A stretch of DNA of 64,000 nucleotides, taken from Agromyces aurantiacus (GTDB lineage Bacteria > Actinomycetota > Actinomycetes > Actinomycetales > Microbacteriaceae). Positions within the stretch are counted from its first letter, which is position 1, and each line of letters starts with the position of its first letter. The DNA lies in assembly GCF_016907355.1 (NCBI RefSeq), contig NZ_JAFBBW010000001.1, positions 868,001 to 932,000 of the forward strand, given 5' to 3'. Positions 5,189 through 43,909 of the stretch are shown here, piece after piece. Position numbers and translations under genes: made by a program. The notes below the pieces were generated by a model. It was not told where the DNA came from, did not search any database, and saw nothing but the letters and a program-made list of their open reading frames with translations.

Positions 5189-5279
5189 GGTCCAGATCCG
5201 CGGATATACGATCCGCCGCGCCGACGAAGTCGTGCCGGCACCGGGGTGGCGGATCGTATATCCGCAGGAATGGACGCCG
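5189..5279. repeat. Intergenic inverted-repeat element, copy 1
   Basis: Perfect 18-bp arms at 5200-5217 (GCGGATATACGATCCGCC) and 5248-5265 flank a 30-base spacer. A second copy at 43819-43909 has the same arm length, the same spacer length, a similar spacer sequence and a shared right flank containing GGACGCCG. Both copies lie downstream of a minus-strand gene and upstream of the next minus-strand gene. No poly-T follows, so it is not a classical terminator, and no transposase is nearby. The gap of 301 bases (5042-5342) contains this element and nothing else recognised. The family is not one I can name. Confidence 0.8.
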
Positions 5280-40321: not shown

Positions 40322-41455
40322 ATGGCGACGAACGTGCTCATCCTCGGCGCGGGCTTCGGCGGGCTCGAGCTCGCGACGCTCCTCTCGGAACGCCTTCAGG
40401 GCGAGGTCGAGGTGACGCTCGTCGACCAGTCGGAGACGTTCTTCTTCGGCTACTCCAAGCTCGACGTGCTCATGGGCCGGGCGACGCCCGACGAGATCCG
40501 CCTGCCGTACGCGCGGTTCTCCAAGCCGGGTGTCGAGTTCCGGCGGGAGCGGGTGCTCGAGATCGATCCGGCGACGCGCCGGGTGGTGACGGATGCCGCG
40601 GGCTACGACCCCGACGTGCTCGTGATCGCGCTCGGCGCGGGCTACGACCCGGCGGCGACGCCGGGGTTCGCCGAGGGCGGCTTCGAGTACTACACGGTGG
40701 AGGGCGCCGCCCGGCTGCGCGACGAGCTCGCGGCCTTCGACGGCGGACGCATCATGCTCGCGGTGCTCTCGATCCCGTTCAAGTGCCCGCCCGCGCCGTA
40801 CGAGGGCGCGCTGCTGCTGCACGAGCTGCTCGTCGCCCGCGGCATCCGGGAGGCGAGCTCTATCCGTGTCGTGAGCCCGCAGCCCTCGCCGATCCCGGTG
40901 TCGAGGTCGGTGTCCCAGGCGCTCGAGCAGGCCATGGCCGACCGCGGGATCCGGTACACGAGTCGGCATCGCGTGCACGGGATCGACCCCGGCGCCCGCG
41001 TCGCGCATCTCGCCGACCACGACGAGCCGTACGACCTGTTCATCGGCATCCCCGTCCACCGCGTACCCGACGTGCTCGTCGGGGCCGGCCTCACCACGGA
41101 CGGGTGGGTGGCGGTCGACCCCGCCACCTCCGAGACCCGCTTCCCCGGCGTGTACGCCATCGGCGACTGCGTCGAGGCGGGCGTCCCCAAGGCCGGCACG
41201 CTCGCCGAGGCCGCCGCGCGCGTGGTGGCCTCGGCGATCGTGCGCCGGGTGCGGGGCGAGGGCGAGCTCGAACGCGGCGGCGCCGGAACCTGCTTCGTCG
41301 AGTTCGGCGCCGATGAGGTCGGCCGGGTCGAGGTCGACTTCGGCGCGCCCGGCGGTCCGAGGGCGGATCTCGTCGGTCCGTCCGCCGCGTTCGCGGGCGA
41401 CAAGGCGGAGTTCGGCGCCGCCCGACGCGCGCGCTGGTTCGGCATGGACGCCTGA
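40322..41455 (+). CDS. Sulfide:quinone oxidoreductase-like / NDH-2-like flavoprotein
   Basis: 377 residues. The FAD-binding motif GAGFGGLELA opens the protein, VYAIGDCVEAG near 285 is the second FAD site, and the C terminus is charged. A cysteine lies in PFKCPPAPYEGALLLHELL, the position that is conserved in SQR-like proteins; further cysteines occur at GDC and GTC. It may pass electrons from sulfide or NADH to quinone, but the classical SQR disulfide cannot be confirmed by eye. It stands alone between a terminator and the next gene. Confidence 0.8.
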   Translation: MATNVLILGAGFGGLELATLLSERLQGEVEVTLVDQSETFFFGYSKLDVLMGRATPDEIRLPYARFSKPGVEFRRERVLEIDPATRRVVTDAAGYDPDVLVIALGAGYDPAATPGFAEGGFEYYTVEGAARLRDELAAFDGGRIMLAVLSIPFKCPPAPYEGALLLHELLVARGIREASSIRVVSPQPSPIPVSRSVSQALEQAMADRGIRYTSRHRVHGIDPGARVAHLADHDEPYDLFIGIPVHRVPDVLVGAGLTTDGWVAVDPATSETRFPGVYAIGDCVEAGVPKAGTLAEAAARVVASAIVRRVRGEGELERGGAGTCFVEFGADEVGRVEVDFGAPGGPRADLVGPSAAFAGDKAEFGAARRARWFGMDA

Positions 41456-41493: not shown

Positions 41494-42240
41494 ATGCCCG
41501 CGACCGTCACCGGCTCCGCCGCACGGGTGACGAGCTCGGATGCCGCGGGGCCGTCGCGCCGCGACGGCGCGACGACCGCGCGCCGAGCGCTCGGGGTCTT
41601 CCGCCTCGCGATCGCGGTCGTCGAGGTCGTCGCGCTCATCGGCAACTACCAGTACGTGCTCGAATTCCCGCTGTTCGCGTCGGTCAACTTCTTCAGCTAC
41701 TTCACCGTCCTCTCGGCCATGCTCGCGGTCGCGACGCTGCTGGTGGCCGCGTGGTACGCACTGCTGCGACCCGTCGACCCGCCCCTGCTCGGCGCGTTCC
41801 GCACCATGGTGACCGCGTACCTGCTCGTGTCGGGCATCGTGTTCGGGCTCATCGCCCTCCAGGCGTCGACGCGCGACTACCGGCTCGAGGTGCCGTGGTC
41901 GGATACGGTGCTGCACTTCGTCGTCCCGCTGCTCGCCCTCGTGGCCTGGACGGTCGACGCCGTCATCGCCGTGAACCCGCCCGTGCCGTGGGCGACGGTC
42001 GGCCTCGTGCTCGTGCTCCCGTCGCTCTGGCTCGTGTACACGCTGCTGCGCGGGGCCGACCTCGGCTGGTACCCGTACTTCTTCCTCGACGCCTCGCAGG
42101 TCGGCGGCTACGCGGGCGTCGCCGCGTACTGCGTGCTCGTGCTGCTCATCTTCGTCGCGATCACGGCGGGACTCGTCGCGGTGCACCGGGGGCTCGCGGC
42201 GCGGGCCGCTCGCATGCGGGCGGTCCCGCACTCCGGCTAG
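41494..42240 (+). CDS. Pr6Pr family membrane protein
   Basis: 248 residues with six helices after a polar N-terminal tail. The pattern VEVVALIGNYQYVLEFPLF, then NFFSYFTVLSAMLAV, VPWSDTVLHFVVPLLAL and WYPYFFLD matches the Pr6Pr (FAR-17a/AIG1-like) family of actinobacteria; its function is unknown. TAGCGT (41482-41487) is six bases before the ATG, so the mRNA is probably leaderless. It is convergent with the amine oxidase gene at 42265. Confidence 0.85.
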   Translation: MPATVTGSAARVTSSDAAGPSRRDGATTARRALGVFRLAIAVVEVVALIGNYQYVLEFPLFASVNFFSYFTVLSAMLAVATLLVAAWYALLRPVDPPLLGAFRTMVTAYLLVSGIVFGLIALQASTRDYRLEVPWSDTVLHFVVPLLALVAWTVDAVIAVNPPVPWATVGLVLVLPSLWLVYTLLRGADLGWYPYFFLDASQVGGYAGVAAYCVLVLLIFVAITAGLVAVHRGLAARAARMRAVPHSG

Positions 42241-42264: not shown

Positions 42265-43758
42265 TCAGGCGACCGTCGCGAAGGGCTCCAGTGCCTCGAG
42301 CACGACCTCGAGGGCCGCGTCGTCGTCGAGCTCGGCGATGCGGCGGGCGTGCTCGGCGGCGAGCATCCCGACGAGCACCGGGCGCCGCGGGTCGGCCCCG
42401 AGGTCGAGCCACGCCGCCACGGTCGGCGTGGCGCCCACGAGGGTGAGCACGTTCGGCGCCTCCGAGACCGGCGGCGGCGTGCCCGGGGCATCCGTCGCCG
42501 ACCGCCAGAAGGCCTCGTCGAATCGCAGCCACACGAGGTCGAGCGCGCCCATCGCGATCGTCGAGATCGCCCGCTGGTGCAGCAGCGGCAGCGGCGGGTC
42601 GAACGTGACCGTGTCGGTGCGCAGCACCCCGATCGACGCGGTGACGATGAGCCGGTGCGTGCGCAGCGACTCGCCCGAGTCGAGGCGGAGGCTGACCCCG
42701 TCCGCGTCCACGGCGATATCGGTGACCGCGCTCGACCCGGCGATGTCGAGGCCGTTCCCGAGGTCCTCGATGAGGGCCGTCCACCCGCTCGTGACCTGGT
42801 CCGTCGGGTGCCACACGAGCGCGGGGTCGAACCGCTGCGCCGAGACCCGCGTCGCCGACGCGCCCGTCGTCGGCTCGACGCCCGTCGTGAGCGCGTTCAC
42901 GAACCAGTCGCGCTCGCTGAGCGCGTCGGGCCCGGGCTCGTCGGAGACCGGCACGGCGCCCGAGCGCACGAGCGCGGTGGAGAGGGGCGTGTCGGTCGAG
43001 TGCGACGCCGCCCACGCCTGGGCCTCGGCGATGACGGCCCATCCGGCGTCGGAGGACGCGACGGCGACGCCCTCAGGGGTCCGCGACCCGAGCCGCGGCG
43101 TGAACGGCCGCGTCGCGACCCCGCTGTCGGCGAGCACGGATCGCATGACGCCCCCATCGGACACGAACGGACTGCCGAGCTCGACCGGCGCGCCGAAGTC
43201 TCGATCCTCCACCGAGCGAAGGCGTCCGCCGAGGTGCTCGCCCGCCTCGATCACGACCACCTCGAAGCCCTCGTCGGCGAGCGTGCGCGCGGCGGCGAGG
43301 CCGGCGATGCCCGCGCCGATCACGGCGATCCGATCGCCCTCGTCGGCGAGGTCGGCGATCGCTCGCGCTGCGCGCAGGCCTTCGGCGTACGCGCCGTGCA
43401 CGGTTCCGGGCGCATCCGGCGAGGTGGCCTCGCCGGCGATGACGAGACGACCCTCGACGGGCTCGCCGAGCGCCCGCCTGAGGTCGGGCGTCGCGCCGAC
43501 CGAGTCGAAGCTGAACGCGCCCCGCATGAAGGGGTCGGCGCTCCACCGCGAGCGCTGGAAGGCGACGGGGCGCGGCACGCCGCCGGGGGAGGCCGTGGGG
43601 GTCGGGGTCGCCGCGCCCGTCGGCGTGGGGCTGGGGGTCGGCGACGGCGGGGCGCCGCCGTCGGTGCACCCCGCGAGCGAGGCCGCCGCGACGCTGCCGA
43701 GCGCCGCGGCGAGGAACGCGCGTCGCGGCATCCCCCCGGCGGGCCCCCGTGCGTCCAT
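42265..43758 (-). CDS. Circularly permuted flavin amine oxidase, lipoprotein
   Basis: 497 residues. A lipoprotein signal ends at C31 (SLAGC) and is followed by a Thr/Pro/Ser-rich linker (35-60). Residues 72-135 (RWSADPFMRGAFSF, then IAGEATSPDAPGTVHGAYAEG) are the FAD-contacting block that ends normal monoamine and polyamine oxidases. Only after it comes the Rossmann entry IAVIGAGIAGLAAARTLADEG (GAGIAG at 148-153, E171), which normally begins the protein. The C terminus stops where the missing block would otherwise continue. This is a permuted order in one uninterrupted frame. TAGCCT is seven bases before the ATG. Substrate unknown, presumably an amine oxidised outside the membrane. Confidence 0.85.
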   Translation of the reverse strand: MDARGPAGGMPRRAFLAAALGSVAAASLAGCTDGGAPPSPTPSPTPTGAATPTPTASPGGVPRPVAFQRSRWSADPFMRGAFSFDSVGATPDLRRALGEPVEGRLVIAGEATSPDAPGTVHGAYAEGLRAARAIADLADEGDRIAVIGAGIAGLAAARTLADEGFEVVVIEAGEHLGGRLRSVEDRDFGAPVELGSPFVSDGGVMRSVLADSGVATRPFTPRLGSRTPEGVAVASSDAGWAVIAEAQAWAASHSTDTPLSTALVRSGAVPVSDEPGPDALSERDWFVNALTTGVEPTTGASATRVSAQRFDPALVWHPTDQVTSGWTALIEDLGNGLDIAGSSAVTDIAVDADGVSLRLDSGESLRTHRLIVTASIGVLRTDTVTFDPPLPLLHQRAISTIAMGALDLVWLRFDEAFWRSATDAPGTPPPVSEAPNVLTLVGATPTVAAWLDLGADPRRPVLVGMLAAEHARRIAELDDDAALEVVLEALEPFATVA

Positions 43759-43818
43759 GTGCCTCAGGCTAGCCGCTCGCGCTCGACGGGGCCGGAGCCG
43801 GCCGCGGGACTGCAGGGT

Positions 43819-43909
43819 TGTTCCATTCAGCGGAGATACGATCCGGCTCGCCGCCGAATGCCCGAGGCCACCGGCGCGCCGGATCGTATCTCCGCGGAAA
43901 CGGACGCCG
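43819..43909. repeat. Intergenic inverted-repeat element, copy 2
   Basis: Perfect 18-bp arms at 43830-43847 (GCGGAGATACGATCCGGC) and 43878-43895 surround a 30-base spacer. Compared with copy 1 at 5189-5279 the arms share GCGGA-ATACGATCCG with compensating changes in both arms, and the spacer and right flank are alike. It is again downstream of one minus-strand gene and upstream of another. Confidence 0.8.

Follow-up and report, generated by a model that had tools for sequence, protein, structure and literature searches.

Within the flavoprotein amine oxidoreductase (FAO, PF01593) superfamily, the protein described here is almost certainly a natural circular permutant, with a permuted FAO fold. 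It is encoded in a 64,000-nucleotide stretch of Agromyces aurantiacus DNA, hereafter the window, by an open reading frame on the minus strand (42265-43758) that runs through 497 codons and a stop codon without a break, as had been stated in the first-pass annotation. The gene, the parts of its product and the adjoining gene are as follows:

42265..43758, minus strand: permuted FAD-dependent amine-oxidase-fold lipoprotein of 497 aa (P0001), from the reading of the ORF and its homologues
43766..43771, minus strand: TAGCCT, a -10-like box 7 nt upstream of the ATG (putative leaderless start), from the comparison of Agromyces loci
43666..43758, minus strand: residues 1-31, predicted twin-arginine signal (R12-R13) and lipobox ending at Cys31, from sequence motifs
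43582..43665, minus strand: residues 32-59, Pro/Thr/Ser-rich spacer, from the sequence and low pLDDT
43351..43581, minus strand: residues 60-136, canonical C-terminal block, now N-terminal (W72, F82, E110-A-T, T119), from PF01593, the LSD2 alignment and a pLDDT of about 95-98
43333..43350, minus strand: residues 137-142, new linker from the old C-terminal helix to the Rossmann strand, from the comparison of linker lengths
42286..43332, minus strand: residues 143-491, Rossmann entry (GAGIAG, 148-153) and the remaining FAD and substrate domains
42535..42540, minus strand: residues 407-408 (Asp-Leu), 408 being the flavin-N5 lysine position, lost, from the joint alignment
41494..42240, plus strand: Pr6Pr-family membrane protein (NF038065, 102.4 bits, cut-off 30), convergent neighbour with the stop codons 24 bp apart

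The canonical order, with the Rossmann entry first and the GEAT...GTVHGA block last, is absent from the 497-aa protein. The Pfam Amino_oxidase model (PF01593) matches it with 173.4 bits against a cut-off of 19.8 in three stretches, which along the gene correspond to model positions 369-442, then 1-71 and then 200-364. The first stretch, residues 60-136 (RSRWSADPF...GEATS...GTVHGAYAEGLRAA), covers model positions 369-442 with an E-value of 1.8e-16, and the Rossmann FAD motif GxGxxG comes next, as GAGIAG at residues 148-153, with E171 and R179 conserved as well. In a phmmer search against PDB sequences, residues 143-490 were matched to residues 346-699 of human LSD2 (4gu1) and residues 60-135 to residues 707-782, so that the permutation proposed at first is borne out: each block is homologous to a part of the same canonical chain, the order of the two being exchanged. 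The block had initially been placed at residues 72-135; its position before the Rossmann motif stands, but it is slightly longer, extending from residue 60 to 136. According to these comparisons, the protein is a single canonical domain that has been opened within a loop and joined anew where its original ends lay.

For wider comparison we used a joint alignment of 336 sequences, made up of 297 permuted (163 Agromyces-like, 41 from other Microbacteriaceae and 93 distant) and 39 canonical ones. It was derived from 349 sequences, of which seven short ones (six permuted, one canonical) were dropped and six loci were unreadable or had blocks that were too weak; four copies of the window's own locus and an incomplete Naasia frame (L026) had been left out beforehand. 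The order was classified by the positions of the phmmer matches of the C-terminal and the Rossmann block. A duplication, with a second canonical C-terminal block in the same protein, or a misassembly of two genes is a practically untenable explanation. No second block was flagged in the listed homologues and loci checked, where the protein search has an upper limit of 1.75 query lengths and a long double-copy fusion would escape it; beyond L490 the permuted chains run on for a median of 5 to 10 residues; and the swapped order recurs in 297 rows, which include near-copies and come to 96 after thinning at 70% identity. Both explanations were therefore ruled out, in agreement with the original reading of the gene as intact.

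The AlphaFold model has a pLDDT of 90 and a pTM of 0.86, and the structure prediction proposed at the outset is confident over both blocks, with a pLDDT of about 95-98 for residues 60-136. The match of the model to LSD2, LSD1 and the maize polyamine oxidase extends approximately to where the C-terminal block starts, and a sequential aligner superposes its residues 139-497 on LSD2 (339 residues, 2.6 A). Both Foldseek and VIA-align work sequentially; in the VIA-align rows, residues from about 60 to 138 have no placement. That residues 60-136 sit at the FAD site is therefore a prediction from homology and the confidence of the model. By sequence and by fold, the closest solved relatives are LSD2/LSD1, spermine oxidases and polyamine oxidases. 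The monomer prediction is also compatible with a domain swap, in which the front block would complete a neighbouring chain to give an active dimer with the canonical order in space and the blocks supplied in trans. We regard such an arrangement as very improbable, as the linker length hardly varies and each of the two blocks is modelled with confidence in the monomer.

The search for homologues with the C-terminal block ahead of the Rossmann motif revealed that this order is common to many sequences from other genomes. Among the nearest homologues of the window protein (the best 120 of 558), 120 of 120 are permuted; when the junction of an Acidimicrobiia relative was used as the query, 97 of the 120 listed matches (the best 120 of 6621) were permuted and 23 canonical. 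The ORFs of a first set of loci comprise 91 permuted and 3 canonical ones, with four copies of the window's own gene and some recurring genomes among the 91. A phylum-wide search of 396 genomes returned 26 loci, 14 of them canonical and 12 permuted, where some of the 12 repeat one gene or loci already counted. Of the 37 genomes from the same genus, 35 contain a copy spanning at least about 82% of the query; the other two, which are fragmented assemblies, contain pieces of the gene. In the Microbacteriaceae, at least 45 of 150 genomes hold a full or near full-length copy, a lower bound with 10 candidates scored per genome, and two more hold pieces. The permuted form is also present in five other actinobacterial families, as assigned by group code, and its named sources include Agromyces, Cryobacterium, Herbiconiux, Frigoribacterium, Microbacterium, Naasia (incomplete frame) and Acidimicrobiia MAGs. 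Canonical-order relatives were found too, for instance at two Microbacterium loci and in one Binatia MAG. Two same-genus permuted copies (G001:C15:5437-6867 and G005:C1:562461-563906) contain one TGA each inside the match and are possibly decayed or affected by a sequencing error. A permuted fragment (P0183) is labelled as coming from a Thermoproteota archaeon MAG, which might reflect spread to archaea or a mis-binned contig.

Where the listed homologues bear a source label, it is an ordinary one (for example 'monoamine oxidase', 'flavin monoamine oxidase family protein', 'FAD-dependent oxidoreductase', 'polyamine oxidase', 'NAD(P)-binding protein', 'hypothetical protein'), and the rearrangement is thereby hidden. 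In the first-pass annotation no described family with this order had been known, and likewise no description of a permuted amine oxidase or FAO was found among the titles and abstract beginnings listed from the open-licence PMC literature. The main text of the CIRPIN preprint (PMC12667903) contains none of the terms oxidase, flavin, FAD, oxidoreductase or Rossmann, and the main text of PMC12224317 does not mention permutation ('permut'). The finding is larger than it first seemed, as the protein belongs to a broad permuted part of the amine oxidoreductase superfamily that is apparently undescribed.

In the canonical relatives (n=39), 18-19 residues separate the equivalents of L490 and W72. Permuted chains end a median of 8 (Agromyces-like), 5 (distant) or 10 residues (other Microbacteriaceae) after L490, so the new ends lie inside this canonical loop, although some permuted proteins have longer tails (95th percentile of 34 in the other Microbacteriaceae). 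At the new junction, the distance from A131 to the first Gly of GxGxxG has a median of 17 residues in both Microbacteriaceae groups and of 16 in the distant group (5-95%: 15-17). Judged from the alignment, both of the new chain ends map to a single loop of the canonical protein, and the common cut loop and linker length argue for one permutation event. On the trees, a single origin of all permuted forms is not apparent. The permuted label needs five changes on a quick tree of 86 rows and four on a careful tree of 59 rows, for which canonical L113 had been left out; a single change was obtained in 0% of the 200 bootstrap trees of the latter, and the permuted rows do not form one clade in the best trees. 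An AU test did not reject one permuted clade (p 0.185); the deep branches are weak, the canonical sequences L113 (quick tree) and L124 (careful tree) are long-branched, and part of the Microbacteriaceae rows had been left out.

The lipoprotein signal noticed at the beginning is widely shared. In an alignment of 78 chosen permuted homologues R12, R13 and C31 are at least 90% conserved, and a motif search detected the RR and lipobox patterns in fractions of 1.0 and 0.96 of the 163 Agromyces-like sequences, 1.0 and 1.0 of the 41 from other Microbacteriaceae, and 0.87 and 0.66 of the 93 distant ones, some of which are incomplete. The protein is probably a lipid-anchored flavoenzyme. The start also looks leaderless on comparison: the TAGCCT box is conserved, and a TAnnnT box stands at leaderless spacing in 11 of the 12 Agromyces loci counted, the twelfth (L012) having the same box further upstream of a start position that had been taken wrongly. 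Between the start of the oxidase gene and the 3' end of an aminotransferase gene lies a palindromic element (window 43826-43899) with 28-nt arms that are 93% complementary and 18 nt apart. Its core, GGAKATACGATCC, has 27 matches in the genome at up to two mismatches compared with one for a reversed control; 24 of the 27 form 12 inverted pairs with a constant 47-nt offset, and another copy is found at 5202-5263 of the window. The element is classed as a REP/MITE-like family.

The active site differs between the groups. At the flavin-N5 position, lysine is present in 39/39 canonical and 92/93 distant permuted sequences, with His in the remaining one, but in 0/163 Agromyces-like rows, which have T (68), L (48), V (42) or other residues (5). 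In the other Microbacteriaceae the lysine is kept in 9/41 and lost in 32/41 rows, so that it is lost in 195 of 204 Microbacteriaceae rows altogether. The Cryobacterium L024 and Acidimicrobiia L029 proteins are examples of permuted relatives that keep it. The window protein has Leu408 at this position, opposite a lysine in the LSD2 alignment that we take to be the N5 lysine of LSD2. The equivalent of a second residue, presumably Tyr761 in LSD1 numbering, is Tyr in 39/39 canonical sequences, Phe in 144/163 Agromyces-like ones and a mixture of F, T, V, H and A in other Microbacteriaceae. In contrast, E171, R179, G195, E110, T119 and W418 are near-invariant in all groups, canonical and permuted. 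Within one lineage, the catalytic face has thus changed, with the loss of the N5 lysine and the altered Tyr761 equivalent, and the FAD-binding residues have been retained. The designation 'amine oxidase' given at first is doubtful as a function of the window protein, because Leu408 takes the place of the N5 lysine.

The loss of the lysine could equally mark a pseudoenzyme, that is, the same permuted fold as an inactive or scaffold flavoprotein in which FAD would serve for structure or sensing and the amine chemistry would be gone. Such a protein would account for the missing lysine, the retained FAD residues and the replaced Tyr761 equivalent. Yet the Agromyces-like group keeps W72 (161/163), W418 (162/163), W450 (163/163) and D407 (163/163), NG86 dN/dS values of 0.26-0.59 in five pairs of Agromyces genes indicate that the gene is under purifying selection, and the loss of the lysine also fits catalysis without O2. 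We consider a pseudoenzyme unlikely, though with a chance worth reckoning with.

Compared with the amine oxidase domain of LSD2/LSD1 (KDM1B/KDM1A), the window protein has the C-terminal block first, has lost the lysine and is predicted to be an exported lipoprotein; unlike LSD2/LSD1, it gave no SWIRM match in a Pfam scan. The tower insert is a feature of LSD1. Maize and animal polyamine oxidases and bacterial putrescine and monoamine oxidases also differ from the window protein by their canonical order and their N5 lysine, which in the maize polyamine oxidase is Lys300, as named in PDB titles. The NCBIfam models of hydroxysqualene dehydroxylase, phytoene desaturases and protoporphyrinogen oxidase match the window protein mainly at the Rossmann entry and far below their curated cut-offs, and its C-terminal block is of the LSD/PAO type. 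Those enzymes have the canonical order and are not known to carry the lysine.

In most Agromyces loci, the gene adjoins genes for a class-III aminotransferase and an aldehyde dehydrogenase, which in the window is of the methylmalonate-semialdehyde type, and in most of them genes for an amino-acid ABC transporter and a PucR-like regulator, both identified by eye, are present as well; L006 is without these neighbours. Outside Agromyces, the constant neighbour is the Pr6Pr membrane protein gene, located convergently downstream in 59 of 60 loci (L036-L065, L079-L108), the exception being L085, where the sequence stops 53 bases past the oxidase match. The distance is mostly short and reaches about 1 kb in L106. 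A Pr6Pr match was found in 27/27 Microbacteriaceae oxidase loci (L001-L026, L034), in L006 about 1.8 kb away, and none was found in the Acidimicrobiia loci L027 and L029 with tblastn at 1e-10. All 45 oxidase-bearing genomes have a Pr6Pr gene somewhere, compared with 128 of 150 Microbacteriaceae genomes overall. Since convergent genes are no operon, we take this as evidence of a long-kept pairing and not of co-transcription. The pairing and the loss of the lysine are not locked together, because the lysine-keeping rows (9/41) with a readable downstream side also carry Pr6Pr.

The Pr6Pr protein of the window (41494-42240, plus strand) is confidently modelled; the model shows six long helices and has no clear counterpart in the PDB. 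Across 48 chosen Pr6Pr sequences, His141 is invariant, Thr71 is near-invariant and a G-W-Y-P-Y-F-F-L-D motif stands at 191-199. No protein of the genome, the Pr6Pr neighbour included, matched PF04750 (Far-17a/AIG1 family) at E-values up to 10. Two Microbacteriaceae loci (G135:C1:1544567-1547080 and G197:C3:273298-275812) have a Pr6Pr gene on both sides of the permuted oxidase gene. A further protein encoded in the window (40322-41455, plus strand) is of the Pyr_redox type, with a type III sulfide:quinone reductase as its best NCBIfam match (174.7 bits, cut-off 525).

According to published work, the N5 lysine is nearly universal in FAOs and promotes the reaction with O2, and an FAO in which it is replaced had the lowest O2 rate among those tested (PMC12224317, PMC12272882). 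For the window protein's branch, a dehydrogenase is more likely than an O2-using oxidase. Our tentative first choice for the Microbacteriaceae branch is a dehydrogenase or another FAD oxidoreductase, which would bypass O2 and deliver its electrons to a membrane acceptor, perhaps with Pr6Pr. Precedents for Tat-exported FAO dehydrogenases are NicA2 and Pnao, which like the window protein combine a Tat-type signal with membership of the FAO family; however, they use a cytochrome c partner and keep the lysine, and the lysine is also kept by nearly all of the enzymes identified in that work (PMC12224317). The withholding of electrons from O2 is shown for NicA2 and Pnao (PMC12224317) and proposed here for the window protein, and the dehydrogenase suggested by us would thus be a different solution. 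An easy reading of this kind is countered by the report that most of the tested Tat-signal FAOs with no cytochrome c gene close by react readily with O2 (PMC12224317). The same report would favour a lipid-anchored amine or polyamine oxidase with a scavenging role, which would react with O2 even though it lacks the lysine, and so would the closest solved relatives, LSD2/LSD1 and the spermine and polyamine oxidases, and the aminotransferase and aldehyde dehydrogenase genes adjoining it in most Agromyces loci. As the N5 lysine is absent, no aminotransferase match was obtained in the non-Agromyces Microbacteriaceae loci (one locus set with 1.5-kb flanks) and a single weak one (31%) was detected in Acidimicrobiia L029, we think that such an oxidase is rather doubtful.

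Taken together, we hold it to be likely that the protein is a permuted, lipid-anchored FAO whose Microbacteriaceae branch acts as a dehydrogenase sooner than as an O2-using oxidase. The permutation presumably arose when a tandem duplicate was fused and its outer parts were then lost, and the resulting chain would fold with FAD into the LSD/polyamine-oxidase architecture. The Tat system would export the folded holoprotein, and the lipid on Cys31 would anchor it to the membrane, with the tether leaving the fold from the cut loop and not from the Rossmann N-terminus. Distant members, with their N5 lysine, probably oxidise amines, whereas in the Microbacteriaceae branch, which has mostly lost the lysine and kept the FAD-binding residues, the reduced flavin would be reoxidised by a membrane acceptor instead of O2, perhaps with Pr6Pr. 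As a bolder and, in our view, improbable extension, one might speculate that one ancient permutation gave rise to a large exported, lipid-anchored FAO branch with a re-sited tether, from which the Microbacteriaceae, on losing the lysine, evolved a membrane-coupled dehydrogenase with Pr6Pr as its dedicated partner; if true, this would be a new type of actinobacterial respiratory-chain donor. A natural permutation in such a much-studied flavoenzyme fold tests which chain connections are needed for FAD assembly and Tat export, and the lysine-losing branch provides a natural experiment on the control of the O2 reaction, a question of current work (PMC12224317, PMC12272882).
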